DNA from: Streptomyces lycii
GTDB taxonomy: Bacteria; Actinomycetota; Actinomycetes; Streptomycetales; Streptomycetaceae
Length of the DNA: 64,000 nucleotides
Assembly: GCF_009735685.1 (NCBI RefSeq)
Contig: NZ_WHPN01000404.1
Coordinates: forward strand, 4,623 to 68,622
Direction of reading: 5' to 3'
Shown here: in pieces, positions 641 to 23,716 of the stretch
Position numbering within the stretch: the stretch's first letter is position 1
Layout of the letters: each line of letters starts with the position of its first letter
The notes under the pieces: model-generated
What the model saw: the letters and a program-made list of their open reading frames with translations, nothing else
Database searches by the model: none
Told to the model about the DNA's origin: nothing
Made by a program: the position numbers and the translations under genes

Positions 641-670
641 GTGCATCTCTCGCTCGGTGACTGGAGCCGA

Positions 671-2026: not shown

Positions 2027-3453
2027 AGCTGACCGTCTTGGACGAACCACCGTTGGAGTTCAGCGGCGGTACCCGCCATATCGACCCACGTCACGGCATC
2101 ACCGACTACGGGCCTGCTGACGCCACCAACACCGCCGTGCGCACCATCCGGGTCGGCATCGTCGGCACGCCGGCCTCCATCCAGGGCCTACGGCGCTGGT
2201 TTGATGGATGCCGCCAACCGATCGCCGCCAAGAACAGCCGTCTCGGGCGACTGTTCGTGCCGTTCCCCGGCTTCGACACCGGCACCGGATTCCGATCCAC
2301 GCTGGTGTGGGATTCACGACTGGAGCGCCCTATCCGGGACCGTGACCTGCAGCGGGTAACTGGCCTCAATCCGCGGGACGCGGTCAAGGCCGCCGTGCAG
2401 CTCTACGCGGCCGAACTCGACGTTCTGGACGAGGAGCCCGGGTGTGATGTCGTGATCATCGCCCGGCCCGAAAGCCTGCCTGAACGCCCCGCACCCGAGA
2501 TCGACCCAGATGCCCCTTGGAAGAAGGCCCCGCCCGCCGAACCAGTGGACGACTTCCGCGCCGTGCTCAAGGCCATGGCCATGCGTTACAGCCGCCCAAT
2601 CCAGATCATCCGCCGCAGCACCTGGGACCCGAGCTTCGCCCCACCTGGCGGGGACAAGCCGCGTCTCCAGGACGAGGCCACCCGTGCGTGGAACCTGCAC
2701 ACAGCTCTCTACTACAAGGCCGGCGGCGTTCCCTGGCGCCTGCCCCGTGAGTCGACGGACCTCGACAGTTGCTACGTCGGCGTGACCTTCTACCGCAGCG
2801 GCGACCACAGCACTCTGGAGACCAGCGTCGCCCAGGTGTTCAACCAGCGGGGCGACGGCGTCATCGTCCGGGGAGCGGCTGCCAAAGTCTCCCGCCACGA
2901 CAGGCAGCCCCACCTCGCTCAAGGGGACGCCCACGCGTTGTTCGGTGACGCCCTCCGCCGTTACCGTCAGGAACATCGCCACCTCCCCGCACGGGTGGTC
3001 TTGCACAAGACCTCCTCGTACACGCCGGAGGAAGTCGACGGGTTTCGAGCCGCCGCCGACGGCGCGGACATCGATACCGTCGAAATGCTTTGGTTCCCGG
3101 CCAGCGACCCCGCGCGGCTGTTCCGCTCGGCCGCACACCCGCCGCTGCGAGGGACGCTTTTCAGCCTCGACGCCCGCCAGCATGTCCTCTACACCCGGGG
3201 CAGCGTGCCCTTCTACGGTACCTACCCCGGTATGTACATCCCCGCGCCGTTGCCGTTCCGCATGGTCGAGACCGAATCCAGCCCGGAGCACCTCGCCGAG
3301 GAACTGCTCGCGTTGACCAAGATGAACTGGAACCAGACCCAGCTCGACGGCCGCCTGCCCATCACCTTGCGCACCGCTAACCAGGTCGGACAAATCCTCC
3401 GCCATCTGGGGCCGCAAGAGCGTGCGCAGGGGCGGTATGCGTTCTATATGTAG
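2023..3453 (+). CDS. Short prokaryotic Argonaute (MID-PIWI), SPARDA
   Basis: This 476-residue protein consists of MID and PIWI domains only, as in short pAgos. ALYYKAGGVPWRLP (about 229-242) is the family's characteristic MID/PIWI junction with guide-end-binding residues. YVGVTFYRS (251-259) occupies the strand where active Argonautes carry their first catalytic Asp; a Thr stands there, so slicing is not expected. PARVVLHKTSSYTPEE and LTKMNWNQTQLDGRLPI are further PIWI signatures. The protein should bind a short guide and act as the target sensor for the DUF4365-APAZ nuclease encoded directly upstream. Start is GTG overlapping the upstream TGA. The next gene is convergent, 31 bp away. Confidence 0.88.
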   Translation: MKLTVLDEPPLEFSGGTRHIDPRHGITDYGPADATNTAVRTIRVGIVGTPASIQGLRRWFDGCRQPIAAKNSRLGRLFVPFPGFDTGTGFRSTLVWDSRLERPIRDRDLQRVTGLNPRDAVKAAVQLYAAELDVLDEEPGCDVVIIARPESLPERPAPEIDPDAPWKKAPPAEPVDDFRAVLKAMAMRYSRPIQIIRRSTWDPSFAPPGGDKPRLQDEATRAWNLHTALYYKAGGVPWRLPRESTDLDSCYVGVTFYRSGDHSTLETSVAQVFNQRGDGVIVRGAAAKVSRHDRQPHLAQGDAHALFGDALRRYRQEHRHLPARVVLHKTSSYTPEEVDGFRAAADGADIDTVEMLWFPASDPARLFRSAAHPPLRGTLFSLDARQHVLYTRGSVPFYGTYPGMYIPAPLPFRMVETESSPEHLAEELLALTKMNWNQTQLDGRLPITLRTANQVGQILRHLGPQERAQGRYAFYM

Positions 3454-3484: not shown

Positions 3485-4024
3485 TCAGCGCGAGAGATCG
3501 GCAGCTGACTTGGGGAGTTTCAACGTTCGCCCTTCGTCTGCCATCCGCCGCATGAGGTCGAAGGCGTCCCTCGCCGCGATGTCGCCGTTGACCACCGCGA
3601 TGGAGACGAGGTCGATGGTCTCGCGGGTCGTGATCCCCTGCATGCGCGCGTAGCGCAGGGCTTCTCGGTCGTCCGAGATCCACCAGGATCCAGCGAACTC
3701 GCTCCAGTTTTTGATCACGAAGCAGGTCTGAGCCTCACCGAGGTGCTTCAGAGGCTGGTCGTCGGTGCCACCGAACACGGAACGTCGGATCCTGTTGATC
3801 TGCTGGGCATCCGCGTCGCCATCGATCTCGATCGCGTCCCCTAACCAACCGGCGTCGATCAGCTCGTCGAGCGCGGGCAGCACGCGGGCGGACCTTCCGG
3901 CCTCGTAGGCCACGGCCTCCGTCCAGCGCCCGCTGCCGGCAAGGACCGACTTGAGCAGGTCAAGGCGTTCCACGGTGGCGAAGTTGCACAGAACCGTGTT
4001 GTCCGGGAAGAGGAAGTCCGTCAC
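3485..4024 (-). CDS. PIN-like nuclease, partner of HTH-peptidase
   Basis: A 179-residue PIN-fold protein. Conserved acidic residues fall where PIN nucleases need them: D8 in the first strand (FPDNTVLCNF), E97 (HLGEAQTC) and D118/D119 (ISDDREAL), followed by TRETIDLV. PIN proteins are usually metal-dependent RNases and often toxins. Its ATG overlaps the stop of the upstream HTH/ImmA-IrrE gene (ATGA), so the pair forms one operon. Pairs of a COG2856-type regulator and a COG2405-type PIN protein have been predicted as toxin-antitoxin-like modules. Here the operon diverges from DISARM, so the protein could be a toxin or an accessory defence nuclease. The PIN fold is well supported; the role is inferred. 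Confidence 0.75.
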   Translation of the reverse strand: MTDFLFPDNTVLCNFATVERLDLLKSVLAGSGRWTEAVAYEAGRSARVLPALDELIDAGWLGDAIEIDGDADAQQINRIRRSVFGGTDDQPLKHLGEAQTCFVIKNWSEFAGSWWISDDREALRYARMQGITTRETIDLVSIAVVNGDIAARDAFDLMRRMADEGRTLKLPKSAADLSR

Positions 4025-5124
4025 AGGGCATCGTGGGTTCCGTGCTCCGACTCAAGCGTGCGCCTGAGATCGTCGACGTCGGCTCCGAGGAGGTTGGCGT
4101 AGGGACGCAACGTGGCCTGTCCGGATTCGTAGGCGGCATAGGCATCCCTGAGGAGAATCCCTGGTGCACGTGTCGTTGCGGCCTTGGCCGTCCGCTGGGC
4201 CAGCTGTTCTCCTCGGCCTGCCAGTTTCGCGGCTTGCATTCCGGTGATCGCCTTGTATCGGTCGCAGGTGCCCGCGTCGATCAACCGGAGCTTGAGCAGT
4301 CGGTAGGCGAGCGTCGACGGGGACACCATTAGCTCACAGGCCAGCTCGGCGAAGGTCTCCTCGGTGAGCCCCGTGGTTCCGACGGCCTCGCGGAGCATCT
4401 CCTCGGGCATGAGGAGTGTGGACGCGAAGGCGTTGGCCCGAACTTCACTCGGGTCTTTGGCTTGCGCCTTGTCGAAGATGTCACGGTCGAGGTGGACGTC
4501 CTGGTCGTCCCCGGCGATAAGGTGACCGAGTTCGTGGGCGAGCGTGAAGCGCTGGCGGGCCGGGACGTGGGTAGTGGCCAAGACGATCAGCTTGGCTTCA
4601 TCGGACGAGGCAGCCAACCCGTCGAAACCGGTGCCGAGGTGGTCGATGGCCACGTCGACCCCAAAGACCGACTCCACGAGGTCGGCGAGGTCGCCCTCGC
4701 TGATCGAGAGACCTGCGTGGCTCACACGGGCAAGCGCTTCGTCGGCCAGCCGCTTGCCCTGGTCCGTGTAGCTGCCCGGGCCGACCCCTACGGCCGACTG
4801 CCGCCAGGGCTGCGGGTAACCGAAGGCATCCAGGTCCGTGCGCAGCACGATGTACCGCTTCGCCGCCTGGAGAGCGGTGCCGGCGTCGCCGGTAGTGGTC
4901 CGGGCCGCGACAGCCAGCGGCAGCTCCACTCCCGTGAGTAGCCAGTCCACGCTGACTTTGCACAGTTCTGCGATACGGGCGAGGTCAAGCGAGGAGAATC
5001 GGCGGGTGCCGTTCAGGGACTTGGATAGTTTCGAATCGTCGAGTCCGACTTGCTGCGCGAAGGCATGGCGACTTACGCCTGATGCCTCGATCAGGCTCAG
5101 TACGCGGTCAGGAATACTGGGCAC
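4021..5124 (-). CDS. XRE-type HTH regulator with ImmA/IrrE metallopeptidase domain
   Basis: A 367-residue protein. An N-terminal XRE helix-turn-helix (about 5-64, including QVGLDDSKLSKSLNGTRR and an LLTG end) is followed by an ImmA/IrrE zinc peptidase domain with LAHELGHLIAGD (HELGH at 197-201). Such proteins are typically repressors or antitoxins whose activity is changed by proteolysis under DNA damage or phage stress. The start is GTG. A perfect palindrome lies 17 bp upstream of the start (5142-5164), exactly between this operon and drmD. The simplest reading is autoregulation, with possible control of DISARM. It is co-transcribed with the PIN gene. Confidence 0.82.
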   Translation of the reverse strand: MPSIPDRVLSLIEASGVSRHAFAQQVGLDDSKLSKSLNGTRRFSSLDLARIAELCKVSVDWLLTGVELPLAVAARTTTGDAGTALQAAKRYIVLRTDLDAFGYPQPWRQSAVGVGPGSYTDQGKRLADEALARVSHAGLSISEGDLADLVESVFGVDVAIDHLGTGFDGLAASSDEAKLIVLATTHVPARQRFTLAHELGHLIAGDDQDVHLDRDIFDKAQAKDPSEVRANAFASTLLMPEEMLREAVGTTGLTEETFAELACELMVSPSTLAYRLLKLRLIDAGTCDRYKAITGMQAAKLAGRGEQLAQRTAKAATTRAPGILLRDAYAAYESGQATLRPYANLLGADVDDLRRTLESEHGTHDAL

Positions 5125-5141
5125 TCGCCCAGACTATCCAT

Positions 5142-5164
5142 CGTCTTGCGATTTTCGCAAGACG
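5142..5164. promoter_or_regulatory. Perfect palindromic operator between HTH-PIN and DISARM operons
   Basis: CGTCTTGCGA, a 3-base TTT spacer, then TCGCAAGACG form two perfect 10-bp inverted arms. The site sits in the 94-bp gap between the divergent HTH/ImmA-IrrE gene (start 5124) and drmD (start 5219). It is the expected geometry for a dimeric XRE repressor that can cover both promoters. It is palindromic DNA rather than a terminator, because genes diverge from it. Which protein binds is inferred. Confidence 0.7.
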
Positions 5165-5218
5165 GGAGGAAGATGTCTCTCGTAGGGCTGCGACCTATCG
5201 AGAAGGAGCCGGTTCAAG

Positions 5219-8200
5219 GTGAAGACTGCTGCGGAGCACCTGCCGGGAGAGCGCGCCGATGCCACCCGTTCGGCATCGCATCCGCCCCTGCCGGAGCCGG
5301 GCCAGGTGGTCAACGTCCGTGGCTCCACCTGGGCTGTGGCCGACGTCCGCCAGCAGGGCCTTCCCCGCAGTCCCGCTGATGAAGGAACTGCCGGTCTCGC
5401 GCACGTGGTGAGCCTTCAGTCACTTGAGGAGGACCGGCTCGGCCAGGAGCTGGCGGTGGTCTGGGAATTGGAGGTCGGGCATACCGTCGCTCCGGATCAG
5501 GGGCTTCCGGAGGCCATCCGCCCGGAGGCATTCGACGACCCCAACACGCTCGCCGCGTTTGTGGACGCCGTGCGCTGGGGAGCAGTCACCTCCGCCGATG
5601 CCGACTCATACCAGGCTCCGTTCCGCAGCGGCGCCAACGTCGAGGCGTACCAGCTGGAGCCCCTTCGCCGAGCTCTGCAGTCCTCCCGTACGAACCTGCT
5701 GCTCGCCGACGACGTGGGCCTGGGCAAGACGATCGAGGCCGGGCTGGTCATACAGGAGCTGTTGCTACGTCACCGCGCCCGATCGGTCGTCATCGTCTGC
5801 CCGCCGAGCCTGGCCCTGAAGTGGCAGGACGAGATGCGGGAAAAGTTCGGCCTGGACTTCGTCATCGTCAACAGCGATCTGATGGCCCGGGTCCGGCGCA
5901 GCCATGGGCTGAACGCCAACCCGTTCAGGCTCTTCCCCCGGGTCATCGTGAGCATGTCCTGGCTACCCACACTGCGGGCGCAGCGCCTGCTGCGCGACGT
6001 GCTGGCCGACGTGCGGGGCACGTCCAACGCCCGGCGCTTCGCCTTCGACATCCTCGTCGTCGACGAGGCCCACCACGTTGCTCCCGCCAGCCCCACCACG
6101 GCGCCCGGGCGACGTGGATACGCCGTCGACAGCCAGCGCACGACGGCCACGAAGCTTCTCGCGGACAGCTGCGAGCACCGGCTGTTCCTCAGCGCGACAC
6201 CGCACAACGGCTACCCCGAGTCGTTCGCGGCCCTGCTGGAGATGATCGACGGCCGGCGGTTCAGCCGCGGCGCGAGCATTGACGAGCGCGCGCTGCGCGA
6301 GGTAGCGGTCCGGCGACTCAAGGGTGAGTTGACCGACAAGGGTTTCAAGACCCGTCAGCTCAAGACGATCCCGTTCACGCCGGACAGCGATGAGCAACAG
6401 CAGTTCACGCGCCTGGAACGCCTGCTCGAAGACAGTGCCCGCGCGAACGGCAAGAGCCGCTCCGGTGACATCGTCTCCATCCTTCTGAAGAAGCGATTCC
6501 TGTCCAGCCCGTGGTCATTCGCCCGCACGCTGGAGCTCTACGAGGAAGCCGGCGCAGGCGACCGACAGCTCCGCGTCGACGACGAAGAGGAGTACTACAC
6601 CGAGGTCCTGGGAAGCGGGCAGTCGGACGAGGAGGAAGGCGAGGCCGACCACCCGGAGTTCACCGCGCTGCGGCAGAGCAAGGGCTCGGACCCCCTCGTG
6701 GCGGCGACCAGTGCCGAGATCTCGTCGCTTGTTGAGTGGGGGCGGCGCTACGAACACCGGCCGGACTCCCGCTTGGAGGCTTTGAAGTCGTTCCTCGACG
6801 CGATCTGCCGCCCGGACGGCCGTCTCTGGACAAACGAACGGGTCGTGGTGTTCACCGAGTACGCCGCAACGCTGGACTGGATCGCCGATGTCCTGTCCCA
6901 GCGCGGCTACCGTGACGTACTGGAGACGATTCAGGGCTCGACGCCCACCGAGGAGCGCGAGAAGATCCGGGCCCGCTTCACTGAGGACCCAGCCAAGCAC
7001 CCGGTCCGCGTGCTGATCGCCACGGACTCCGCAGGTGAGGGCATCGATCTGCAGGCCCACTGCCACCGGTTGATCAACTTCGACATCCCGTTCAACCCCT
7101 CCCGTCTGGAGCAGCGGATCGGCCGCATCGACCGCTACGGCCAGCAGCAGACTCCCGAGATCTACCACTTCGCGCCTGACTCCACCTCCACGACCTATGC
7201 CGCTGACCTGGACTTCATGCGTCGGATCGCGGAGAAGGTCGGCCACGTCGCCGCCGATCTCGGTTCGGTCAACCAGGTCATCGACGCAGACGTACAGAAT
7301 CACTTCAGCCCGACCAGGCCGAGCCGCAGGACGCGGCCGAGCGCACCGGACGACGGCAACGAGGTCATCAACCGCGCCCTGGCCGGCGGTGTCGAACTGA
7401 ACCGTCGGCTGACTGAGCTGTCGCGCACCTACCACGAGCAAAAGACGGAGATGCACCTCATCCCCAGCAACGCACGCCGCGTGGTGGACACGGCGCTAGC
7501 GCTCACCGCCCAACCACCGCTGGAGGAAATCGGCGACGACCGGACCGAAGCCCAGGTCTTCACCGTCCCCTCGCTGGGATCCGCATGGCAGTCGGCGCTA
7601 CGCGGCCTGGACACCCGTCTGGAACCGGGCGTGCCCCGCCCGATCACCTTCGACGACCAGGCCGCCGAGGGCAGAACCGACCTGGTGCACGTCCACCTCG
7701 GCCACGCTCTCATGCAGCGCTCCGGCCGCGTCCTGCGCAGCGCGCTGTTCAGCGTCGACTCCCCCGTCAACCGAGTGACGGCGGTCGTTGCCGAAGACCT
7801 GCCCCAATCGTGCGTCGCCGCCGTCTCACGGCTGGTCCTCGTCGGACGCGGCGGGCTGCGGCTGCACGAGGAGGTCTTCCTCACCGGCATCCGGCTGCGC
7901 GGACAGGCACTCGCCGAGGCCAAGGTCGAGCAGGTCCTCGACGAGGCACTCGACACCGAGGACCTCGTGCTGGCCGACGAACGGGTGCGGACCATGCTCG
8001 CGGGGCTGTGGAACGAGGACGACTCCCGGCTGCGCACCCGCCTACTGACCGCGATGACACGCAAGGGCGAAAGCCGTCGGGAAAAGGTAACCGAGTCCCT
8101 GCAGAACCGCAGGGACGCTGACATCGCCAGGGCACGAGAGATCTTCGGCGCCTTCCGGATCAATCTGAACGAGTCCCGAGACCGCCTGGAGCGGGAGATC

Positions 8201-8422
8201 AGGTCCCAGGAGGAAGCCCTGTTCACCGACGACCAACAGGCCCAACGCCGCCGTGACCTCCGAGCAATGGAGGACCGGCTGGCCAGCCTGGACGAGGAAG
8301 AGGAGCGAGAGATCACCGCGATCGGGGAGCGCTACAGCGACATCAGGCCCCACGTGTCCGCTGCGGCCGTCGTGTTCGCTCTGACCCCGCAGGACGCCGA
8401 GGCCGGGATGGTGCAGTCATGA
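5219..8422 (+). CDS. drmD: DISARM DrmD, SNF2-family helicase/ATPase
   Basis: First gene of a class 1 DISARM operon; 1067 residues. The SNF2/DEAD-like core is clear: Walker A DDVGLGKTIEAG (about 164-175), Walker B VVDEAHH (about 279-285), motif III LSATPHNGYP (about 324-333), and motif VI RIGRIDRYGQQQ (about 633-644). The C-terminal third (about 890-1050) is charged and probably coiled-coil. In class 1 DISARM, DrmD acts with the DrmA-DrmB complex and the methylase against incoming unmodified DNA. The GTG start has AAGGAG about ten bases upstream. It overlaps drmMI by 4 bp. The divergent HTH-peptidase operon and its palindrome suggest regulation. Confidence 0.92.
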   Translation: MKTAAEHLPGERADATRSASHPPLPEPGQVVNVRGSTWAVADVRQQGLPRSPADEGTAGLAHVVSLQSLEEDRLGQELAVVWELEVGHTVAPDQGLPEAIRPEAFDDPNTLAAFVDAVRWGAVTSADADSYQAPFRSGANVEAYQLEPLRRALQSSRTNLLLADDVGLGKTIEAGLVIQELLLRHRARSVVIVCPPSLALKWQDEMREKFGLDFVIVNSDLMARVRRSHGLNANPFRLFPRVIVSMSWLPTLRAQRLLRDVLADVRGTSNARRFAFDILVVDEAHHVAPASPTTAPGRRGYAVDSQRTTATKLLADSCEHRLFLSATPHNGYPESFAALLEMIDGRRFSRGASIDERALREVAVRRLKGELTDKGFKTRQLKTIPFTPDSDEQQQFTRLERLLEDSARANGKSRSGDIVSILLKKRFLSSPWSFARTLELYEEAGAGDRQLRVDDEEEYYTEVLGSGQSDEEEGEADHPEFTALRQSKGSDPLVAATSAEISSLVEWGRRYEHRPDSRLEALKSFLDAICRPDGRLWTNERVVVFTEYAATLDWIADVLSQRGYRDVLETIQGSTPTEEREKIRARFTEDPAKHPVRVLIATDSAGEGIDLQAHCHRLINFDIPFNPSRLEQRIGRIDRYGQQQTPEIYHFAPDSTSTTYAADLDFMRRIAEKVGHVAADLGSVNQVIDADVQNHFSPTRPSRRTRPSAPDDGNEVINRALAGGVELNRRLTELSRTYHEQKTEMHLIPSNARRVVDTALALTAQPPLEEIGDDRTEAQVFTVPSLGSAWQSALRGLDTRLEPGVPRPITFDDQAAEGRTDLVHVHLGHALMQRSGRVLRSALFSVDSPVNRVTAVVAEDLPQSCVAAVSRLVLVGRGGLRLHEEVFLTGIRLRGQALAEAKVEQVLDEALDTEDLVLADERVRTMLAGLWNEDDSRLRTRLLTAMTRKGESRREKVTESLQNRRDADIARAREIFGAFRINLNESRDRLEREIRSQEEALFTDDQQAQRRRDLRAMEDRLASLDEEEEREITAIGERYSDIRPHVSAAAVVFALTPQDAEAGMVQS

Positions 8423-11400
8423 CCCGCACGTCCGCACTGAACGCCTCCGATCTGCACCGCAACTGGCTCGAACTGGTCGACACCGACGGGCCGTTCCTCG
8501 CCGTTCCCGCGCTCAAGCGGGTCTGGCCACAGGGAATCCCCCAGCCGGACGCCCGCGCCCTGGCCACCCTCAAGGACGCCAAGCCCGCGTTCGAGAAGGC
8601 ATGGGAGAACTGGGACAAGCAGCGGGACGACAGCGCCGCCGTCGACCTCTACCGCGAAGCGCGCGATACCTGGGTGGACCTCGTCCTTCGTCAGGTCCTG
8701 CGCTGGGGCGGCTCCTACGCAACCGCTGCCGCGGGCGAGGTCCGGTCGCCGAACCACGCCGTCACCGTACGTCCGAACGGTGCGCTCATGCATGGTGATA
8801 CAACCGGCGCGCTGGTACTGGTCGTCGATCCGGTCGACTCGCTGCGCGACCCTCTCACGGACGGGTGGGCGGCCAGCCCGGTCGACCGCATGGAGGAGCT
8901 GCTGCGGGCGACCACTATCCCGATCGGCGTCGTCACGGACGGACGCTGGTGGGGGATCGTCAGCGCCCGCGAGCAGACCATGGTCGCCTCCGGCATCGTC
9001 GACGCACAGACCTGGATCGAGGAACCTCAGACCCGCAACGCCTTCATCGAGCTGCTCCAGCGCCGGCGCCTGATCGGCGGCAAGCCCGAGGACCGCCTGA
9101 CGGAGCTTTTCGGCGAGTCGGTCGCCGCCGCTGAGGAGATCACCGAGGCGCTGGGCACCCAGGTTCGCCGCGCGGTCGAACTGCTCGTCCAGGCGCTGTC
9201 CGAAGCCGCCCTGGAGGCGGTTCGTCATGGCGAAACGGACCCGCTGCCGGCCAAGCGCGCGGACGTGTACGAAGCGGCCGTGACGGTGATGATGCGGGTC
9301 GTCTTTCTACTCTTCGCCGAAGACCGCGGCTTGCTCCCGCAGAGCAGGCTGTTCGCCATGGGCTACGGCGTCAGCGACGAACTGGACGCCCTCGACACCC
9401 GAGCTCACGAAGAGGGCAGCGAAGCACTCGACGCCACCCATCTGACCTGGCACCGCCTGCTGGCTACGTCCCAGGCGCTGTACCGGGGAGCCTCCTTCGA
9501 GGACCTGCGTCTGCCTGAGTATGGGGGCTCGCTGTTCGACCCCGATCGATTCCCGTTCCTCACCGCGCGCAGAGACCAGGGCACTCTCGCGATCACCGTT
9601 AGCGACCGGGTCATGCTCGAAGTCCTGCGAGCCGTCCAGATCGCCCAGCTCAAGGGGCAGCCCGCCCGGCGGATCTCGTTCCGCGACATCGACGTCGAGC
9701 AGATCGGCTACATCTACGAAGGTCTGCTCGGCTACTCCTGCGCCGAGGTCGACGAGTCCGACGGGGTCATCGTCGGACTCATCGGCACCGCGGGTGAAGA
9801 ACCGGAGATGCCGCTCGCCGAACTCGAAACCCTCGCGGAGGCCAAGCAGACCGACGCCGCACTGACCGACGCGATCCTGGCCTGGGTCAAGGAGTACCAG
9901 CCGGCCGCCAAGCCGCCGACGAAGGCCGCCCTCGCGAAGGCCCTACGGGCCGGCGACATCTTCGAGGACACGGAACGCGCACTGCGCGCCGCGACCACCG
10001 ACGCCGACTTGCGGGACCGGCTGCGCCCGTACATCGGGATCATCAGGCGCGACCTGCGCAACCGGCCCCTGGTCGTGGTGCCCGGTGGGGTGCTGGTCGT
10101 CGAGACCCCGTCGCGTGCCACGGCCGGCGCGCACTACACGCCGCGCTCGCTCGCCGAGGAAGTCGTGCGGTACGCGCTGGAACCACTCGTCTTCGAGCCC
10201 GGCCCGCACCAGACCGCGGACCAGGACGCGTGGCGGCCCGTGTTCTCGGACCGGATCCTCGATCTCAAGATCGCTGACATCGCGTGCGGTTCCGGCGCCT
10301 TCCTCGTCGCCGCAGCGCGCTACCTCGCCGCCCGGCTCGTCGAGGCGTGGCAGCGCGAGGGTGTGGCACACGGGACGCCACACGACCTGCACGTTCACGC
10401 GATAAGGACGGTCGTCGCCACCTGTCTCTACGGCGCTGACATCAACGGCATGGCCGTGGAGATGTGCAAGCTGTCGCTGTGGCTGGTCTCGCTCGATCCC
10501 AAGCTGCCGTTCTCCTTCGTCGACGACAAGGTGCTGCACGGCAACTCACTGCTCGGCCTCACCGACGCGCGCCAGCTCAAGCGCCTGCACATCGACCCCG
10601 ATGCGGCGAGCGGCCCGCCGAGCCTCTTCGATCTGGACGTGGAAGGGGTGCTCGCGCAGGCAACCCGTCTTCGGCGCCAGCTGGCCACCGAGGTGAACGA
10701 CAGCGACCCGCAGCGCTCCGCCGCCACGAAGCGGCGGCAGTGGCGGGAGTACCAGAAACTGACGGCCCAGCTCGCCGACGTCGCGGACGGGGTGATTGCA
10801 GCTGGACTGCGGCTCGGCGGCAAACCTGGCAAGGCGCTGAAGGCGGCGTACGAGAATCTCGGTATCGCGGTGGGTCTCGCTTATCCGGGTGATGGCGGTG
10901 AGGCGGATCGGAGGATGCTCGACGGCATCCTGGACTCTGGCCTCACGCCGACGGTGATGACGGACTACTCACGGTGGAAGCCGCTGCACTGGATCCTCGC
11001 CGTGCCGGATGTGATGGAGCGGGGCGGCTTCGATGCAATCATCGGCAACCCACCGTTCCTCAGTGGATCCGATGTGACAGGAGCGATGGGCACCAATGTG
11101 CGCGACTGGCTTGTCCATACCCTCGCGCATGGGCGACGCGGAAGAGCCGATCTTGTCGCCTATTTCTTCCTGCACGCCATGGCTCTTGTGACGACGAGCG
11201 GCGGACTCGGCCTTATCGCAACTAACAGTATTGCTCAGGGCAAAAGTCGCGAGGTCGGGCTCGACCAAATGGTCGCTGCCGGCTTCACAATTACCCGCGC
11301 AATCCAAAGTCGATCATGGCCAGCCGCAGGCGCCAACCTGGAGTACGCGGCAGTCTGGGGTACTCGCGCGCCCGTAAATCCAGACACACCACGCATGGCT

Positions 11401-12453
11401 GACGAAGTCGCAGTACGGTGCATCTCTACGCTGCTGGAACCTGTTGGCCGAGTGGATGGCGAACCGAGGCGCTTGGTCGAGAATGCCAAAGTTTCCTATA
11501 TCGGCTGCTATGCCTTGGGAATGGGATTCGTACTATCTCCGGAAGAAGCTGACGAGTGGATTGAGTCCGACCCTAGAAATTCGAAAGTTCTGCGACCCTA
11601 CCTCAACGGGGAGGACCTCAACTCTCGGCCGGATAACTCGCCATCCCGATGGGTCATCGACTTCAACAACCGTTCTGAGGATTCAGCTCGGTCATACCCG
11701 CTTCCATATGAACGCCTGCTCTCCAGGGTAAAGCCTGAGCGAGCGAAGAAGAGCAAAGCGGAGCGGGAAGCCCCGTGGTGGCTGTTTCTGCGATCGCGAC
11801 CAGCGCTACGCAAGGCCATTGCCGAACTGGACCAGATGCTGATTTTGACAAGGCACTCAGTTACCTTGATGCCGTGTCGCTTCAGCAAAAGCCACGATGA
11901 TGAATGGCTTGTCCCAAGTGAAGCCACCGTAGTCTTCGCAACCGACTCATTTACCGATCAGGCTGTACTGTCGTCGAGCCCCCACCAGATGTGGGCAATC
12001 AAGTACGGATCTGGCCTGCGAAAGGATCCCCGTTACACGCCTTCGGGTGTTTTTGAGACGTTTCCGCGGCCTGCGCCAACCGTCCGACTGGCCGAGATGG
12101 GCCGAACCGTGGAATCCGAGCGCCGCGAAATCATGCTGCGCCGCGACCTCGGTCTGACCAAGCTCTACAACCTGGTCAACGACCCCAATATCACCGACTC
12201 CGCCGACGGCGACGTGGCGCGGATGCGGGAGATTCACTTCGAACTCGACCAGGCCGTCATGGACGCCTACGGTTGGAGCGATGTCCCGCTCGACCACGGC
12301 TTCCACACGTACCGGCAGATGCGTCGGTGGACGGTCAGCCCCACCGCGCGCGTCGAGATCTTGGACCGGCTACTGGAAGAGAACCACCGACGAGCCGCCG
12401 CTCAGGGTGAGGCTCTGCCCCCGGCCTCCGAGGACGAGGAGGGCGACGAGTGA
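8419..12453 (+). CDS. drmMI: DISARM DrmMI, N6-adenine DNA methyltransferase
   Basis: A 1344-residue, Eco57I/PglX-like adenine methylase. Motif I (AdoMet binding) is DIACGSGAF (about 620-628) and catalytic motif IV is NPPF (877-880). The long N-terminal part is typical of these large enzymes. In class 1 DISARM it marks host DNA so that the helicase complex spares it. The segment from about 11040 to 12100, after motif IV and where target recognition is expected, has many A/T-ending codons unlike both flanks. This suggests a swapped recognition domain. The ATG overlaps the drmD stop, and the 3' end overlaps drmA. Not frameshifted. Confidence 0.92.
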   Translation: MTRTSALNASDLHRNWLELVDTDGPFLAVPALKRVWPQGIPQPDARALATLKDAKPAFEKAWENWDKQRDDSAAVDLYREARDTWVDLVLRQVLRWGGSYATAAAGEVRSPNHAVTVRPNGALMHGDTTGALVLVVDPVDSLRDPLTDGWAASPVDRMEELLRATTIPIGVVTDGRWWGIVSAREQTMVASGIVDAQTWIEEPQTRNAFIELLQRRRLIGGKPEDRLTELFGESVAAAEEITEALGTQVRRAVELLVQALSEAALEAVRHGETDPLPAKRADVYEAAVTVMMRVVFLLFAEDRGLLPQSRLFAMGYGVSDELDALDTRAHEEGSEALDATHLTWHRLLATSQALYRGASFEDLRLPEYGGSLFDPDRFPFLTARRDQGTLAITVSDRVMLEVLRAVQIAQLKGQPARRISFRDIDVEQIGYIYEGLLGYSCAEVDESDGVIVGLIGTAGEEPEMPLAELETLAEAKQTDAALTDAILAWVKEYQPAAKPPTKAALAKALRAGDIFEDTERALRAATTDADLRDRLRPYIGIIRRDLRNRPLVVVPGGVLVVETPSRATAGAHYTPRSLAEEVVRYALEPLVFEPGPHQTADQDAWRPVFSDRILDLKIADIACGSGAFLVAAARYLAARLVEAWQREGVAHGTPHDLHVHAIRTVVATCLYGADINGMAVEMCKLSLWLVSLDPKLPFSFVDDKVLHGNSLLGLTDARQLKRLHIDPDAASGPPSLFDLDVEGVLAQATRLRRQLATEVNDSDPQRSAATKRRQWREYQKLTAQLADVADGVIAAGLRLGGKPGKALKAAYENLGIAVGLAYPGDGGEADRRMLDGILDSGLTPTVMTDYSRWKPLHWILAVPDVMERGGFDAIIGNPPFLSGSDVTGAMGTNVRDWLVHTLAHGRRGRADLVAYFFLHAMALVTTSGGLGLIATNSIAQGKSREVGLDQMVAAGFTITRAIQSRSWPAAGANLEYAAVWGTRAPVNPDTPRMADEVAVRCISTLLEPVGRVDGEPRRLVENAKVSYIGCYALGMGFVLSPEEADEWIESDPRNSKVLRPYLNGEDLNSRPDNSPSRWVIDFNNRSEDSARSYPLPYERLLSRVKPERAKKSKAEREAPWWLFLRSRPALRKAIAELDQMLILTRHSVTLMPCRFSKSHDDEWLVPSEATVVFATDSFTDQAVLSSSPHQMWAIKYGSGLRKDPRYTPSGVFETFPRPAPTVRLAEMGRTVESERREIMLRRDLGLTKLYNLVNDPNITDSADGDVARMREIHFELDQAVMDAYGWSDVPLDHGFHTYRQMRRWTVSPTARVEILDRLLEENHRRAAAQGEALPPASEDEEGDE

Positions 12454-15400
12454 CCACGCCAGCCAACCCCCAGGACCTGCCCTACCGGCTCGCTCTCGAA
12501 CCGGACGACCGGTCCTGGACCGCCCGCGAGAACCTGGTCGACATCCTGGAACGCGAGCTGCTCGGACCGGCCAACGGGCCCGAGGAGGTCCTCGACGGCG
12601 TACCGGACTCGGCCTATCTGATTGGACGGATCGCCCCCGTTCGCCTCACCTCTGGCAACGACGACCCCGGGGAGGCCGGCTCGGACGATGCCTCGACCGA
12701 CGTCGGTGACGCCGTCGACGCTGTGGCAAGCCGGGGCGTACCGGTGACCGCCGTGGACGAGGCCGGCGCGAGTGCTGACGAGGACACCGTCGAGGACGAT
12801 CCGCAGAAGCGCGGCCTGATGATCCCGGCGTCGATGGGTCTGCGCTGCCAGATCCCGGACGCCCTCGACTCGTTCACCGTGACCGCCTCCTGGGGCGTGT
12901 ACGAGCCGATCAAGGAGAAGGGCAGCCAGGACGGGAGCGATGGAGAGACGACCTCGCGCATTCGTCGTTTCAAGCGCACGCCCATCGAGATCACCAAGAC
13001 GGTCATCGTCGCCGACCTGCGCCCCTCCCAGACCAAAATGATCCCCCTCAAGGACAAGGTGCTCCTGCGGGTCGACCGCTACGACGACACCGATCGCGGC
13101 TGCCGCTTGATCGAGGTGGCGCTGTGCAACGACCGGGAGACTCCCCGCAAGATCCCCGTCGAGGCATGGCTCTACCAGACCAAGCTGTCTGTCAAGGCCG
13201 GTGGCGCCGAGGTTTTCCTCCCGGTCGCCGACGTGCTTCAGGACACCCGGCTGGAACGGGACGACGAGTTGCGCCGCCTGCGGCTTCAGTACCGGGACCG
13301 GCTCGAGTTCGCGATCGGGCGCACGTGTTCGGTCGACTGGGCGGTGGCAGACGGCGCGCGTCGGGCCAGCGAGGTCTGGACGACCTGGCTGCCGGCCTGT
13401 CAGACGCCGCAGACCGCCGCCGAGGAGATCGGCGAGGCGCTGCTGGACATGCGAAAGTTGGCGTCGGCGAGCCCCGCAGACCTGATGGCCGGGCTCACAC
13501 CCATCGTCGCGGGCTACGCCGCCTGGCTCGATGGCGAACAGCAGCGGGCCGAGGCGTTGCCGGCGCACCTGCGCTCCGAGGGCCTGGACGCGGTGGCCGA
13601 GGCCCGCAAGGTGCAGCGTCAGCTCGAGGACGGCCTGGAACACCTGCTCGGTGATGAGGAGGCGCTGCGTTGCTTCCGGTTCATGAACCAGGTGATGGCC
13701 GACCAGCGCATCCAGTCGCAGGTGGCCCAGCGCCGGGCGAAGCAGCCCGATGAGAGCATCGACGAAGCTCGCGCGACGATCCTCTCCGAGCTGGAGGCCA
13801 AGGCGCACTCGTGGCGTACGTTCCAGCTCGCCTTCGTACTGATGCAGCTCCCGCTGCTGTCCGATCCGGCGGCCGAGAAGCGTTCCGGCGACCTCGCCAA
13901 GGCGCAGCTGCTGTTCTTCCCGACCGGTGGCGGCAAGACGGAGGCGTACCTCGGCCTTGCCGCGTACACCTTCGCCATCCGGCGGCGCCAGGGTGTCGTC
14001 GACGCCTTCGGCGGCCCGCTCGACGGCAGGTCCGGGGTGGCCGTGCTGATGCGGTACACGCTGCGGTTGCTCACCGCCCAGCAGTTCCAGCGCGCCACGG
14101 CCCTGATCTGCGCGGCCGAGATGGCGCGCCTCAAGGACCCGACGACGTGGGGCGACGAGCCGTTCCGGATCGGCCTGTGGGTCGGCACGGACGTGAGTCC
14201 GAAGCGCTATGACGAGGCAGCGACCCAGCTGCAAAAGGTCAACGAGGGCCGGGGGTACCGGCTGACCGTGTTGCAGATCCAGCGCTGTCCCTGGTGCGGC
14301 ACCAGGATCGAGGCACGCGATGTGCGGGCGGACGGCGGAAAGCGCCGGGTGTACGTCTACTGCGGTGACGAACTGGCCGAGTGCCCGTTCGCCGACGGCG
14401 GTGAGGTGGCCGAAGGGCTGCCGGTACTCACTGTCGACGAGGAGATCTACCGCCTCGCCCCCGCCTTCGTCATCGCCACCGTCGACAAATTCGCCCGACT
14501 AGCGCGCGAGGGCGAGGCGGCCTCGCTCTTCGGCTATGTGTCCAGGCGGTGCGAACGCCACGGCTTCGTCCATCCCGACTACCAGCACTGCGAGATCAAG
14601 GACGGCAGCAAGCATCCGAAGAAGGACGCGCTGCCAGCCGCCGCCGTGCACCCGGCGGCGCGGCTCCGGCCGCCAGACCTGATCATCCAGGACGAGCTGC
14701 ACCTGATCACTGGGGCGCTCGGCACGACGGTCGGCCTGTTCGAGGTCGCCATCGACGTGATGACCGCCTGGCGTGCGAGCGATGGGCGTCCGGTACGTCC
14801 CCTCCTCGTCGCCTCGACGGCGACCGCCCGTAACGCGCCCGACCAGGTGCGTGCCCTCTACGGGCGCGACGTCACGATCTTTCCGCCGCAGGTGCTCGAC
14901 GCGGGGAACACGTTCTTCTCCAAGGAGGTGCCGGTCTCCGAGAAGGCGCCCGGCCGGCAGTACGTCGGGATCAGCACCACCGGTGTGCGCCTGACCACGG
15001 CGGAGATCCGTGTGTCCGAGGTCCTGATGGCCGCGGCGCAGCTGCTCCTCGACCGGTCCGGGGATGCCGCCGATCCGTACCTGAGTCTGGTCGGCTACTT
15101 CAGCGCGACCCGTGAACTGGCCGGTATGGCCCGCTACATGGGCGACGACATCCAGACCGCGCTCGCCAAGCGCCGCCCGTGGTCGAAGCTGCCGAGCCGT
15201 ACCGGAACGAACTTCGGTGCCCTCCATGTCGCCGAGCTGACCTCACGCGTGGCCAGCGCCGATATCACCGCGACCCTGGACCAGATGGCGGTGCCGTTCG
15301 ACCCGAGTTTCGACTCGACGGCCGGCAAGCGACAGCTCCGGTCCCTGCGCGAGGCCAAGAAGCCGGTGCCCGAGCGCGAGGTGAGCCCGTACGACGTGGT

Positions 15401-16157
15401 CCTGGCCACTTCGATGCTCCAGGTCGGCGTGGACGTGACCCGGCTCGGCCTGATGCTCGTCGTCGGTCAGCCGAAGAACACCGCCGAGTACATCCAGGCT
15501 TCCTCACGCGTGGGACGTGTCGCGGAGAAGCCCGGTCTGGTCGTCGCGCTCGGCAACTGGGCGAGACCGCGCGACCTCGCTCATTTCGAGCAGTTCCGGC
15601 ACTACCACGAGACCTTCTACGCCCAGGTCGAGGCGCTGTCCGTCACGCCGTTCTCTGTGACGTCCTTGGAGCGTGGCCTGGACGGCGTACTGGTCAGCGC
15701 GGCCCGCGTACTCCAGGCCGTCCAGGTGCAGGGTCTCTCACCCGAGCACGGCGCGGCCCGCATCGAGGGCGAGCAGCACTTCGCTGGCGAGCTGATCGAC
15801 GCGCTGGTAAGCCGCGTACGACGAGCGTCCGACGAGGACGCAGCCGAGCGGGCGCGGCTGCGGCTGAGCAACCGCTTGGACCACTGGGGCAAGCGCCGCA
15901 AGCATCTTGAGGACCTGCGTAAATCGCTGGTCTACGAGAAGGTCACTGACGACACGCGGCACGACGCCCTCATGATGAGCGCCGAGAACGCCAAGTCGCG
16001 CGCCGACACCCGGGACGCTCCGCCGTTCGTGGTGGCGAACTCGATGCGCGAGGTGCAGCCGGAGATCAACCTGCTCGTGAGCCCGATCAAGGAGAACCTG
16101 GTGTACATCGCACCCCCCGGTGCACCACAGTGGGTGTTTCCCGAGGAGACCTCGTGA
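12450..16157 (+). CDS. drmA: DISARM DrmA, helicase-domain protein
   Basis: A 1235-residue helicase of the DISARM core. Walker A is FPTGGGKT (490-497) and the Walker B-like box is QDELHL (D748, E749, H751). The C-terminal helicase part contains LQVGVDVTRLG and YIQASSRVGRV. A zinc-knuckle-like CPWC (C613, C616), followed by a further cysteine pair, lies in between. DrmA forms a DNA-loading complex with DrmB in known DISARM systems. GTG start overlapping drmMI (GTGA); RBS lies inside drmMI. Length and order match class 1 systems. Confidence 0.93.
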   Translation: MTTPANPQDLPYRLALEPDDRSWTARENLVDILERELLGPANGPEEVLDGVPDSAYLIGRIAPVRLTSGNDDPGEAGSDDASTDVGDAVDAVASRGVPVTAVDEAGASADEDTVEDDPQKRGLMIPASMGLRCQIPDALDSFTVTASWGVYEPIKEKGSQDGSDGETTSRIRRFKRTPIEITKTVIVADLRPSQTKMIPLKDKVLLRVDRYDDTDRGCRLIEVALCNDRETPRKIPVEAWLYQTKLSVKAGGAEVFLPVADVLQDTRLERDDELRRLRLQYRDRLEFAIGRTCSVDWAVADGARRASEVWTTWLPACQTPQTAAEEIGEALLDMRKLASASPADLMAGLTPIVAGYAAWLDGEQQRAEALPAHLRSEGLDAVAEARKVQRQLEDGLEHLLGDEEALRCFRFMNQVMADQRIQSQVAQRRAKQPDESIDEARATILSELEAKAHSWRTFQLAFVLMQLPLLSDPAAEKRSGDLAKAQLLFFPTGGGKTEAYLGLAAYTFAIRRRQGVVDAFGGPLDGRSGVAVLMRYTLRLLTAQQFQRATALICAAEMARLKDPTTWGDEPFRIGLWVGTDVSPKRYDEAATQLQKVNEGRGYRLTVLQIQRCPWCGTRIEARDVRADGGKRRVYVYCGDELAECPFADGGEVAEGLPVLTVDEEIYRLAPAFVIATVDKFARLAREGEAASLFGYVSRRCERHGFVHPDYQHCEIKDGSKHPKKDALPAAAVHPAARLRPPDLIIQDELHLITGALGTTVGLFEVAIDVMTAWRASDGRPVRPLLVASTATARNAPDQVRALYGRDVTIFPPQVLDAGNTFFSKEVPVSEKAPGRQYVGISTTGVRLTTAEIRVSEVLMAAAQLLLDRSGDAADPYLSLVGYFSATRELAGMARYMGDDIQTALAKRRPWSKLPSRTGTNFGALHVAELTSRVASADITATLDQMAVPFDPSFDSTAGKRQLRSLREAKKPVPEREVSPYDVVLATSMLQVGVDVTRLGLMLVVGQPKNTAEYIQASSRVGRVAEKPGLVVALGNWARPRDLAHFEQFRHYHETFYAQVEALSVTPFSVTSLERGLDGVLVSAARVLQAVQVQGLSPEHGAARIEGEQHFAGELIDALVSRVRRASDEDAAERARLRLSNRLDHWGKRRKHLEDLRKSLVYEKVTDDTRHDALMMSAENAKSRADTRDAPPFVVANSMREVQPEINLLVSPIKENLVYIAPPGAPQWVFPEETS

Positions 16158-18181
16158 CCGACGTGACGCGATTCGTCTACGACGCCGCGACCGCCGTCGA
16201 CCCCCTCGGCGACCTGGAGAAGGAAGCGGAGAAGGCGGCCAAGCACAACCGCGCCAAGGTCGGTTCGGGACGGCCGTCCTCGCTGCTCTACACCTACGGC
16301 CCCGGCTCGATCATGGACCTGCCCCAGTTCACGATCATGTCCACCGGCCTGGACGACTGGGACCGCATCTGGCGACGCCGGGACTCGCTCCCGCCTCAGA
16401 TCCACGCGCCCCGTCTGCGCGACGTGGTGCGCATGCTCCTGCGCTCCCCCGACGTCCAGCTGCGCCCCCACCCCTGGCAGCCGAAACGGATCAGTCTGTC
16501 CACCGAGGGCAATGATCTCGGCGTGCCGGCCCGCGTGTTCCCGCAGTGGCTGCGGTGCACCGGCTGCGACATGCTCGGCATGCTCTCTCAGTTCGACTAC
16601 CGCAACACCCACCCGTTCCGGACCGACCTGGCCTGCTTCGAGCACGCCAAGTGCACCGGCCGGTCCGGCAACAGGGCACGCAAGCCTGCCCGCCGCACCG
16701 CCGTGCCCGCCCGCTATCTGCTCGCCTGCGTCGACGGACACCTGGACGAGTTCCCGTACGACCAGTGGGTCCATCACGGCAAGCCGTGTGCCCAGGCGCA
16801 GTTCCCGGCCCTGAAGATGGTCGACCGGACGGCCGGCAAGGGCGCCTCGGCGGTCATCCACTGCGCGTCCTGCAATATGCGCCGCCCGATGAACGAGGCC
16901 CAGGGCGAGGCCGGAAAGTCCAAGCTGCCCGACTGCCGGGGCCGCCACCCACACCTTGACGCCTTCGAGCCCAAGGGCTGTCGGAACAAGACGCGGCTGA
17001 TCCTGGTCGGTGCCTCCAATCTCTGGTTCCCCGCCACCCAGTCGATCATCGTCATGCCAGAGTCCCAGCAGGAACGGGCAAGCGACCTCGCGGACCGGAT
17101 CCGCACTTCCCTGGGTGACAAACTGGCTAAGTACCGCGAGAACCTGGATATCCTCCGCGATCTGCTCGAAGGCAAGGTGGACATCACCCTGCTGTCCGAC
17201 CAGGAACTGGAGCAGGCAGTGACGGCAGCCTCGGCGCCGCCCGCCACCGAGGAGGAGCAGGAAGAGCAGATCCGCACCTGGGATCCGGTCGACCTGCTGG
17301 TTCCGGAGTGGCGCTATCTGCTGAAGGATCCGCTCGGCACCCGCCACGAGGACGAGGCGAGCGGTCTGACGCTGTCAAAGCGTGCGCGCGACCCCGCTCT
17401 CCGGCCCGAGATCACGCGGGTTCTCGCCGTGGAACGACTGCGCAAGGTCAATGCCTTGGTGGGCTTCACGCGCATCGACGACATGGATCGTGTAGGCGAC
17501 CTGCCCCGGCGGCTGGCGCCCCTGACCCGTGCCGCGAGGCCGACCTGGACGGTCGCGACCGAGGACCGGGGTGAGGGCATCTTCCTGCAGCTCGACGAGG
17601 AGAGGGTTGCCGCCTGGGAAAACCGGGTCCTCGCGACGGACCTGTGGCAGGCCCACCGCAAGGCGCATCAGCGCAACTTCAACCGCCGGTTCTCCGACAC
17701 GGCTGCGAGCGTCGATCCCGACACCCGGCTGAGGTTTCCGCGATACTGGCTTGTCCATACCTTCGCGCATGTCCTCATCCGCGAACTCGCCATGACATGC
17801 GGCTACTCCGCGGCAAGCCTGAGCGAACGGCTCTACGCCTGGCCGGAGGCGGAAGGACGTGAGCCAGCGGCCGGTCTGCTGATCTGCACCACGGCGTCGG
17901 ACAGCGACGGGACACTGGGCGGCCTGGTCCAGCTGAGCGAACCCGCCCGCCTGCAGCGCGTCGTGTCCAACGCGCTCGACAAGGCGACGCGGTGCTCTTC
18001 AGACCCCATCTGCGCTATGCGCACGCCCCAGGACCCCGAGGACTTTCTACACGGGGCGGCGTGCCACTGCTGCGTGATGGCGTCGGAGACCTCGTGCGAA
18101 CGCGCCAATCGCTTCCTCGACCGCCGGTTCCTCGTCGACCTACCCGGGAGCGACCTTGGCTTCTTCTCGCCCCTCGGCTGA
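16154..18181 (+). CDS. drmB: DISARM DrmB (DUF1998)
   Basis: A 675-residue DUF1998 protein, partner of DrmA. The N-terminus has the characteristic YTYGPGSIMDLP (about 47-58). The C-terminus has the conserved cysteine cluster CHCC (C637-C640), then ETSCERANRFLDR (C648), likely zinc-binding. DrmB binds DrmA and helps it load on DNA. I chose the GTG at 16154 because it makes the same GTGA overlap with drmA as the other DISARM junctions and has GAGGAG upstream. A GTG 24 bp earlier (16130) is in frame but has a poorer context. The 3' end overlaps drmC by 26 bp. Confidence 0.92.
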   Translation: MTDVTRFVYDAATAVDPLGDLEKEAEKAAKHNRAKVGSGRPSSLLYTYGPGSIMDLPQFTIMSTGLDDWDRIWRRRDSLPPQIHAPRLRDVVRMLLRSPDVQLRPHPWQPKRISLSTEGNDLGVPARVFPQWLRCTGCDMLGMLSQFDYRNTHPFRTDLACFEHAKCTGRSGNRARKPARRTAVPARYLLACVDGHLDEFPYDQWVHHGKPCAQAQFPALKMVDRTAGKGASAVIHCASCNMRRPMNEAQGEAGKSKLPDCRGRHPHLDAFEPKGCRNKTRLILVGASNLWFPATQSIIVMPESQQERASDLADRIRTSLGDKLAKYRENLDILRDLLEGKVDITLLSDQELEQAVTAASAPPATEEEQEEQIRTWDPVDLLVPEWRYLLKDPLGTRHEDEASGLTLSKRARDPALRPEITRVLAVERLRKVNALVGFTRIDDMDRVGDLPRRLAPLTRAARPTWTVATEDRGEGIFLQLDEERVAAWENRVLATDLWQAHRKAHQRNFNRRFSDTAASVDPDTRLRFPRYWLVHTFAHVLIRELAMTCGYSAASLSERLYAWPEAEGREPAAGLLICTTASDSDGTLGGLVQLSEPARLQRVVSNALDKATRCSSDPICAMRTPQDPEDFLHGAACHCCVMASETSCERANRFLDRRFLVDLPGSDLGFFSPLG

Positions 18182-18917
18182 CGCCGAGGCGGCCAGGCGA
18201 CTCGGCCAGCTGCTCACCGGGACCGAGGCCAGGGAAGTCGCCGACCGACTGGCCGACGGCGACACCCTGACCACGGCGCTCAAGGTCATCGCCGTCGGCC
18301 ACCGAGCAGAGGTTCGGGCACTCCTGGAGCTCACCGACCCGAGTGCCCCCTCACCGAGCCATCTCATCACCCTCCTGCGTGCCATAGAAGGCGCTCGCTC
18401 GGCACCCACACTTCTCACCCCTCTCTGGACCATGCCTGGTCCCCTCGCCCAGAGCGGGCCACTGACCACCTCGGCGACCCAGCTGGTCGACAGCGCGCGC
18501 TGCTCCGTCACGTGTTCGACCTTCAACTTCCAAAGGACATCGGGGCTCTGGAACTCACTGCGGCTGATAGCGCAACGGCCGGAGATCGCCGTACGCGTCT
18601 ACCTCGACACCAGGGCCGCTGACCGCGGCCAGCGAAGCTGGTCCCCAACCACCACCGAGGTCGCCGAGCATATGAAGCCGGCGACTATCTTGCGAACGAG
18701 GAAGTTCGACGGCGATCACGTCCGCAACCACGCGAAGTTCCTCGCCATCGACCACCGCTTTCTGCTCGTGACCAGTGCCAACTTCTCGTGGAGCGCGGAG
18801 CACAACAACATCGAGTTCGGAGTGCTCATCGACAATCCGAACCTGACCGACGCTGTCGAACGCGAACTCCTGCGAGCGGAAGACTCACTCTACGAGCGGG
18901 TTCCCACATCGCTTTGA
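18156..18917 (+). CDS. drmC: DISARM DrmC, phospholipase D-like protein
   Basis: A 253-residue protein with one PLD/HKD motif: H192-A-K194, D199, then TSANFSWS, matching HxKx4D...SxN. DrmC is the accessory DISARM component and is considered dispensable in the studied system; its nuclease or structural role is not settled. TTG start with GGGAG five bases upstream, inside the end of drmB. It closes the DISARM operon. A single HKD motif implies dimerisation to form an active site, as in Nuc-type PLD enzymes. Confidence 0.88.
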   Translation: MASSRPSADAEAARRLGQLLTGTEAREVADRLADGDTLTTALKVIAVGHRAEVRALLELTDPSAPSPSHLITLLRAIEGARSAPTLLTPLWTMPGPLAQSGPLTTSATQLVDSARCSVTCSTFNFQRTSGLWNSLRLIAQRPEIAVRVYLDTRAADRGQRSWSPTTTEVAEHMKPATILRTRKFDGDHVRNHAKFLAIDHRFLLVTSANFSWSAEHNNIEFGVLIDNPNLTDAVERELLRAEDSLYERVPTSL

Positions 18918-20137: not shown

Positions 20138-20884
20138 TCAGGCCTCCGGTCCGGCCAGCTCGAAGTCGTCCTTCGTCAGTTCGGCCCGCAGCCGCTCCTC
20201 GGCGACGTCCGCGTAGTGCGCGGACAGCTCGACGCCCACGAAGCGGCGTCCCTCGCGCAGGGCCGCGACCCCGGTGGAGCCGCTGCCGGTGAACGGGTCG
20301 AGGACGGTGCCACCCTCGGGGCAGACCTGGACGAGCTGCTGCATGACCTCGACCGGCTTCTGGGTGATGTGAACCCGGCCCTTGCGGGGCTGGGAGGCGA
20401 TGTAGTGCCCCGGCAGGTAGAGGTCGCGGGTGTTGTCGAGGGAGCCCTTGACGCCCCAGATGATGAACTCCGAGTCCTGCTTCGGCCCGCCCTTGCGGGG
20501 CCGGCTGGACGGCTTGATCCACGGAATCGTGCCGCTCCAGGTCCATCCCGCCATCTGCAGGGCGTCGGAGGTGGTCGGCTCCTGGCGCCAGTCGGTGAAG
20601 ACCATCGCGACCGCGTGCTCGGTCGAGGCCCGGTACGCCTCGGTGAGAAGTTCGGTGAGCCAGGAGCGGTAGGAGCGCTGGTCGCGGTTCTCGCCCGGGA
20701 AGTTGGCGAGGTCGTGCGCCGAGTTGCTCGTGACGTACTTGGCACGTGCGGTACGGCCGGTTCGATCAGAGCTGGTGCGGCCCCCGGAGTTGTACGGCGG
20801 ATCGGTGATCACCGCCTGGACGCTCTCGTCCGGGAGGGACTTCAGGACGGTCAGGGCGTCGCCTCGGTGCAGCGTGTAGCTCAT
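20138..20884 (-). CDS. DNA methyltransferase, beta class (N4-cytosine/N6-adenine)
   Basis: A 248-residue amino-methyltransferase. Motif IV AVITDPPYNSGG (DPPY at about 27-30) precedes motif I VLDPFTGSGSTG, the beta-class order. The expected AdoMet-binding residues follow (FVGVELS). Such enzymes are either orphan methylases or the M part of restriction systems. The ATG at 20884 gives a compact protein starting just before the first beta strand; upstream in-frame codons look non-coding. It points away from the transfer operon and towards the DUF91-like nuclease gene. Neither N4 nor N6 specificity can be decided from the sequence. Confidence 0.85.
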   Translation of the reverse strand: MSYTLHRGDALTVLKSLPDESVQAVITDPPYNSGGRTSSDRTGRTARAKYVTSNSAHDLANFPGENRDQRSYRSWLTELLTEAYRASTEHAVAMVFTDWRQEPTTSDALQMAGWTWSGTIPWIKPSSRPRKGGPKQDSEFIIWGVKGSLDNTRDLYLPGHYIASQPRKGRVHITQKPVEVMQQLVQVCPEGGTVLDPFTGSGSTGVAALREGRRFVGVELSAHYADVAEERLRAELTKDDFELAGPEA

Positions 20885-20984
20885 GGGGAGGGCCTCTCTT
20901 CGGGCGCGGCGGAGTCTGGACCTGCTCCGGGCAGCGCTCAACGGCGTGCATCCGGTGCGAGGTTGCAGCGGAGGTTAACGGCGA

Positions 20985-21373: not shown

Positions 21374-21381
21374 CCGCTGCG

Positions 21382-23688: not shown

Positions 23689-23716
23689 CCCTCGCCCCAG
23701 AACGGAGGTACGACCC

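Follow-up and report, generated by a model that had tools for sequence, protein, structure and literature searches.

Little is known about how DISARM is regulated, and a locus in Streptomyces lycii raises the question of whether a small toxin-antitoxin-like gene pair could serve as its switch. The pair, a gene for a fused HTH-M78 protein followed by a gene for a PIN-fold nuclease, stands back-to-back with a DISARM operon, and the gap between them holds a perfect palindrome. Here we ask what the pair is, to which of the two transcription units the palindrome belongs, and how far the pair and DISARM may share one switch. The window is the whole stretch of DNA that was analyzed, 64,000 nt of contig NZ_WHPN01000404.1, and the positions of the features below are positions in it.

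The locus and its neighbors

3485..4024, minus strand: PIN-fold nuclease gene, 179 aa, predicted toxin
4021..5124, minus strand: HTH-M78 gene (ImmA/IrrE, COG2856-Xre fusion), 367 aa, leaderless GTG start, predicted repressor and antitoxin
4890..4921, minus strand: HTH-M78 protein linker predicted to be disordered (residues 68-78, pLDDT <50), holding A73-A74-R75, a candidate cleavage site
5131..5160, minus strand: predicted HTH-PIN promoter, -35 TTGCGA (5160-5155), 18-bp spacer, -10 TAGTCT (5136-5131), 6 nt to the GTG at 5124
5142..5164, no strand: perfect 10+3+10 palindrome, predicted operator, arms 5142-5151 and 5155-5164, core TTGCGA-N3-TCGCAA at 5146-5160
5146..5174, plus strand: predicted drmD promoter, -35 TTGCGA (5146-5151), 17-bp spacer, -10-like GAAGAT (5169-5174)
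5219..8422, plus strand: drmD, class 1 DISARM gene 1, GTG start; NCBIfam DISARM_DrmD 1241 bits (cut-off 610), PADLOC DrmD
8419..18917, plus strand: drmMI, drmA, drmB and drmC, the remainder of the DISARM operon; PADLOC DrmMI, DrmA, DrmB, DrmC

A sequence-only reading had recognized the neighboring operon as DISARM, and PADLOC and NCBIfam bear this out and assign it to class 1, with drmD, drmMI, drmA, drmB and drmC complete and in order. The same reading had described an HTH/ImmA-IrrE gene and a PIN gene diverging from drmD across 94 bp that contain the palindrome, and this layout is found exactly so (5124-4021 and 3485-4024 against drmD at 5219, gap 5125-5218). The two genes of the pair overlap by 4 bp as it had said, with stop and start joined as GTGA in the window rather than the ATGA it had given, which is the commonest form among the relatives. 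A SPARDA-like operon at 641-3453, made up of a DUF4365-APAZ and a short Argonaute gene (PADLOC Aga_REase-PNTD1-PNTD2 9e-147, pAgo_I 8e-174), converges on the pair, and since DISARM lies on the other side, the pair sits between two defense systems. The region downstream of DISARM (20138-26725) has, besides a gene resembling DNA methyltransferases (20941-20138, DPPY motif), what looks like a conjugation cluster of actinobacterial type; from these genes, the DISARM island may be carried on an integrative element.

The HTH-M78 and PIN proteins

The HTH-M78 reading frame matches Pfam Peptidase_M78 (1.6e-20) and HTH_31 (9.5e-9) in one chain. Its HELGH motif occupies residues 197-201, and H197, E198, H201, D206 and E227 are invariant across 21 HTH-M78 relatives. 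In an AlphaFold2 model (pLDDT 86) the M78 domain matches CapP and IrrE/PprI, and the HTH domain matches phage repressors of the P22/434 type. The linker between the two domains is variable except for A73, A74 and R75, each of which is kept in 37 of 38 homologues; judged from this conservation and from the predicted disorder around it, the AAR triplet is a candidate for the cut site, or else for a motif that binds the toxin.

The 179-aa partner has no match among Pfam, NCBIfam or PADLOC profiles, and a PDB sequence search gave it no assignment. Its AlphaFold2 model (pLDDT 91) has a PIN/VapC fold, which superposes on PAE2754 with Z 12.2 and rmsd 2.6 over 121 aligned residues and on VapC4 with Z 11.5, and its acidic residues D8, E41, E97, D118 and D119 do not vary among 22 relatives. 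By their sequences, the active sites of both proteins look intact.

A conserved two-gene module

We surveyed two overlapping samples of 394 genomes each, one from the family and one from the class, together with a scan of genome_contigs, a scope of about 730 species genomes in one class; whole-genome surveys were used because the single-protein scan of genome_contigs gave two relatives only. In all, 38 full-length HTH-M78 loci were obtained, some of them read from assemblies that may hold errors. The PIN gene lies directly downstream in 37 of these, co-directional and mostly with the 4-bp overlap. In the sole exception, L119 (10681-13000), the HTH-M78 homologue has no PIN gene, and genes judged by eye to read as yefM/yoeB follow it, a possible toxin swap from PIN to yefM/yoeB. 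Conversely, a search of the family genome set with the PIN protein found it apart from the HTH gene once only, as an 83-residue fragment. The HTH-M78/PIN pair is thus a conserved toxin-antitoxin-like module, in which toxicity and its neutralization are predicted.

Among the viral contigs, a close pair with the operator lies on one 118-kb contig (L126/L128), two Streptomyces HTH-PIN pairs lie on plasmids, and phage records held no match to the PIN protein. At some loci Wadjet genes adjoin the pair, namely JetC3/JetD3 at L033 (11792-17310; the same gene clusters occur at L034) and JetA2 at L052 (7554-9296).

The palindrome goes with the HTH gene

About 0.0007 palindromes of this kind are expected in a 94-bp gap of the same composition. 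The core TTGCGA-N3-TCGCAA recurs 19-23 bp upstream of the HTH start in 36 of the 38 loci (25 exact, 10 with one mismatch and 1 with two), a spacing slightly biased by the fact that start codons at some loci were picked with its help. This conservation argues that the palindrome is not a product of chance, and since the core precedes the HTH start with or without DISARM nearby, it is best read as the module's own operator; it is kept even in members of 35% identity far from DISARM. The exact site has one copy in the genome of the window, at the drmD/HTH gap, and is likewise single-copy in nearly all pair-bearing genomes with an exact operator, and it was found in 1 of 20 genomes that lack the pair. 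We also considered the palindrome as an element of DISARM itself and rejected this, as it tracks the HTH gene and was not found at 20 inspected DISARM loci without the pair.

Two loci, L033 and L034, have no operator, and there four basic residues are also gone from the recognition helix (KLSKSLNGTRRF to QLTECLSGTSPF or QFRECLSGTSPF). This joint loss, which represents a single evolutionary event, serves as natural evidence that the HTH domain reads the site, and the palindrome is very probably the operator of the HTH-M78 protein. In L117-L119 the operator upstream of the HTH gene is extended into overlapping palindromes (TTGCGATTTGCGCAAATCGCAA), possibly two dimer sites.

Recruitment beside class 1 DISARM in one clade

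The sequence-only reading had held that one operator wires the pair to DISARM, and had named a pair found mostly away from DISARM as an outcome that would refute this. In our survey that outcome is seen: 29 of the 38 loci lie away from class 1 DISARM, with the same operator, and 9 adjoin it. All nine fall within one clade of 12 (support 100/99), and the DISARM label changes twice on the tree against 8.3 times in shuffles; none of the 26 loci outside the clade lies beside class 1 DISARM, and drmD is missing from the genomes of the three clade members that are not linked. In the 394-genome family survey, only 5 of 43 genomes with class 1 drmD have the pair at the DISARM locus, so that the pair was rejected as a component of class 1 DISARM. 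Clade-limited linkage and this low count together indicate a module that is mostly independent of DISARM, and on these distributions its linkage to DISARM is a secondary recruitment in one actinobacterial clade. What stands of the proposed wiring is therefore the two-gene unit, the operator and, within the linked lineage, the predicted overlap with the drmD promoter described below; what falls is the module as a part of DISARM.

At L049 (2247-7177), DrmA-like and DrmB-like genes stand upstream of a distant pair member (37% identity), and no drmD was found nearby; the module may here have become linked to a DISARM-type system a second time, independently.

Predicted promoters on both sides of the operator

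On the side of the HTH gene, nearly all relatives share one arrangement, with 16-19 bp between the -35-like TTGCGA and TAnnnT and then about 6 nt to the start codon; from this geometry a leaderless promoter is predicted. On the side of drmD, an AAGGAG at 5203-5208 precedes the GTG at 5219, and the hexamer xxxGAT stands exactly 17 bp past the outer half-site TTGCGA (or a variant of it) in every one of the 7 operator-bearing loci with a divergent drmD, against 0 of 31 others, reading GAAGAT, CAGGAT, TTAGAT, GAGGAT (twice) and CATGAT (twice). A Fisher test of this split gives 8e-8, or 8e-6 with near-duplicates collapsed, and the signal is suggestive only, because the criterion was picked post hoc after viewing the sequences and the related loci are not independent. 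Most of these hexamers lack the consensus first T, and a best-of-offset TAnnnT score on the outward side did not separate DISARM from other loci; only xxxGAT at the fixed position did. It is plausible that xxxGAT is the drmD -10, and in the DISARM-linked lineage the operator would then overlap a putative drmD promoter. At L002 the operator forms the center of a perfect inverted repeat of about 50 bp, which gives mirror-image promoters.

A proposed shared switch and its alternatives

We favor, with a probability of roughly 0.55, an autoregulated COG2856-Xre/PIN module whose operator has secondarily come to be shared with DISARM, release probably occurring through cleavage by the M78 domain. In this model a dimer of the HTH-M78 protein would bind TTGCGA-N3-TCGCAA and repress its own leaderless promoter, and the same protein would also restrain the co-translated PIN nuclease. 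Once the module had arrived head to head with class 1 DISARM, in a single clade of actinobacteria, the outer half of the operator would act as the drmD -35, and because of this we propose that a single repressor holds both transcripts. A signal, for example single-stranded DNA, may then activate the M78 domain to remove the HTH domain, possibly by cutting AAR in the linker, upon which DISARM would be raised and the PIN nuclease freed as a back-up growth-arrest arm. The module and DISARM may switch on together, since the shared switch sits at the expected DISARM promoter. A more specific version, in which a phage or DNA-damage signal makes a self-cleaving repressor-antitoxin cut itself at AAR, so that in the one clade the shared operator is vacated and DISARM is switched on at the same moment as a PIN suicide nuclease is released, a layered immunity switch, we regard as distinctly unlikely as a whole.

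The module could instead be a free-standing autoregulated toxin-antitoxin unit in a defense island, with an operator for the pair only and an independent drmD promoter within or beyond the 94-bp gap. That the operator goes with the HTH gene in all lineages, that most pairs lie away from DISARM, and that pair-less DISARM operons are common and need no such operator would all agree with this, as would the weakness of the drmD -10-like sequence and its post hoc discovery. It does not account for the xxxGAT that every one of the seven linked divergent loci has at 17 bp, and the sole TTGCGA-like -35 suitably spaced for drmD in the window is the one within the operator, where a bound protein (5142-5164) would lie about 55 bp from the drmD start; on balance we place this reading on the unlikely side. 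An HTH-M78 protein acting as activator or dual regulator of DISARM appears very improbable: sequence does not tell the sign of regulation, and immune-operon regulators of both signs exist (activator SiwR, PMC10693628), but the operator overlaps both predicted -35 elements, the classical position for repression, and earlier work on HTH-M78/PIN modules predicts or demonstrates a toxin-antitoxin function (PMC2701414, PMC6504116).

Self-cutting by the M78 domain is itself subject to doubt: quite possibly, though we lean the other way, the protein combines only repressor and antitoxin roles, its peptidase has PIN or some other target, and AAR is where the PIN toxin docks. Toxin binding is expected of such antitoxins, and L033 and L034 keep the pair, still beside DISARM with the operator gone; as they retain it without the DNA-binding residues, a role other than repression seems to be under selection, which suggests that the pair does more than repress. 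Against this, the known repressor-linked M78 peptidases cut the repressor (PprI/DdrO, PMC4374696; CapP/CapH, PMC10904395), and a conserved triplet in a disordered linker beside an intact peptidase fits a substrate site. Should the shared-switch model be true, a roaming toxin-antitoxin module has been recruited as the switch of a large defense system, tying DNA-level defense to a back-up growth-arrest arm.

Comparison with known systems

COG2856-Xre fusions with PIN partners were predicted as toxin-antitoxin modules by Makarova (2009, PMC2701414), and in M. tuberculosis the toxicity of Rv2514c is rescued with Rv2515c (PMC6504116). By analogy these are likewise two-gene operons with an HTH-M78 fusion ahead of a small toxin-like gene; unlike the pair in the window, they have no reported operator shared with a large defense system. 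RosmerTA (RmrA/RmrT; PMC10440598) similarly joins an HTH-ImmA antitoxin and a toxin against phage, and 13 RmrA profiles match the HTH-M78 protein of the window (best 6.1e-16). Its characterized toxins are membrane-acting and it shares no operator with a neighboring defense operon, whereas the partner here has a PIN fold; RmrT toxins are diverse, and RmrT is among the PADLOC profiles that the PIN protein does not match. PIN or PIN-like partners of ImmA antitoxins have been seen in the RosmerTA network (PMC10440598).

In CapH+CapP (PMC13373217, PMC10904395) an HTH repressor and an M78 protease control an adjacent immune operon, as proposed for the window, and such regulators, which act like PprI/DdrO, occur next to BREX, Pycsar, CBASS and DISARM (PMC13373217). 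The capP profile matches the HTH-M78 protein at 1.4e-23, and the palindrome in the drmD gap with its plausible -10 may be a comparable promoter site, where binding is predicted. CapH and CapP are two separate proteins with no PIN partner, whereas the window has one fused 367-aa chain with a PIN partner, divergent from the immune operon. In Deinococcus, too, an M78 peptidase cuts an HTH repressor as we propose here: single-stranded DNA activates PprI/IrrE (PMC10904395), which cleaves DdrO between a Leu and an Arg residue (PMC4374696). These two proteins govern a global DNA-damage regulon, in contrast to a single-site local regulator here. RptR (PMC12255303) resembles the repressor proposed here in acting locally, from a palindromic site of its own, to control a defense island that includes a toxin-antitoxin system; it differs in being a small separate protein that lacks a peptidase domain and in having a short palindrome within repeats as its site.

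Regulators of this type beside immune operons (PMC13373217) and HTH-ImmA antitoxins with PIN-like partners (PMC10440598) were thus known already. In an open-access search, which was not complete, we found no literature joining DISARM with ImmA and PIN, and no paper combining the operator, the sharing with DISARM and the linker motif. New here are the family-wide operator, its one copy per genome, its apparent use by a DISARM promoter as well within a single clade, and the motif conserved in the linker. For the study of DISARM regulation, the pair offers a candidate repressor, one operator, predicted starts of both transcripts and a candidate cut site.

Class 1 DISARM loci without the pair

At two DISARM loci without the pair (L089, L091), a gene upstream of drmD shares the start of JetC3. 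At loci with a drmD type of 45% identity (L095-L099, L102, L103), the place of the HTH-PIN pair upstream of drmD is repeatedly taken by genes that look like Ser/Thr kinase genes, together with a divergent gene of about 660 aa (VPVSLAEIARIAGVGRAAVSNWRRRHDSFP).
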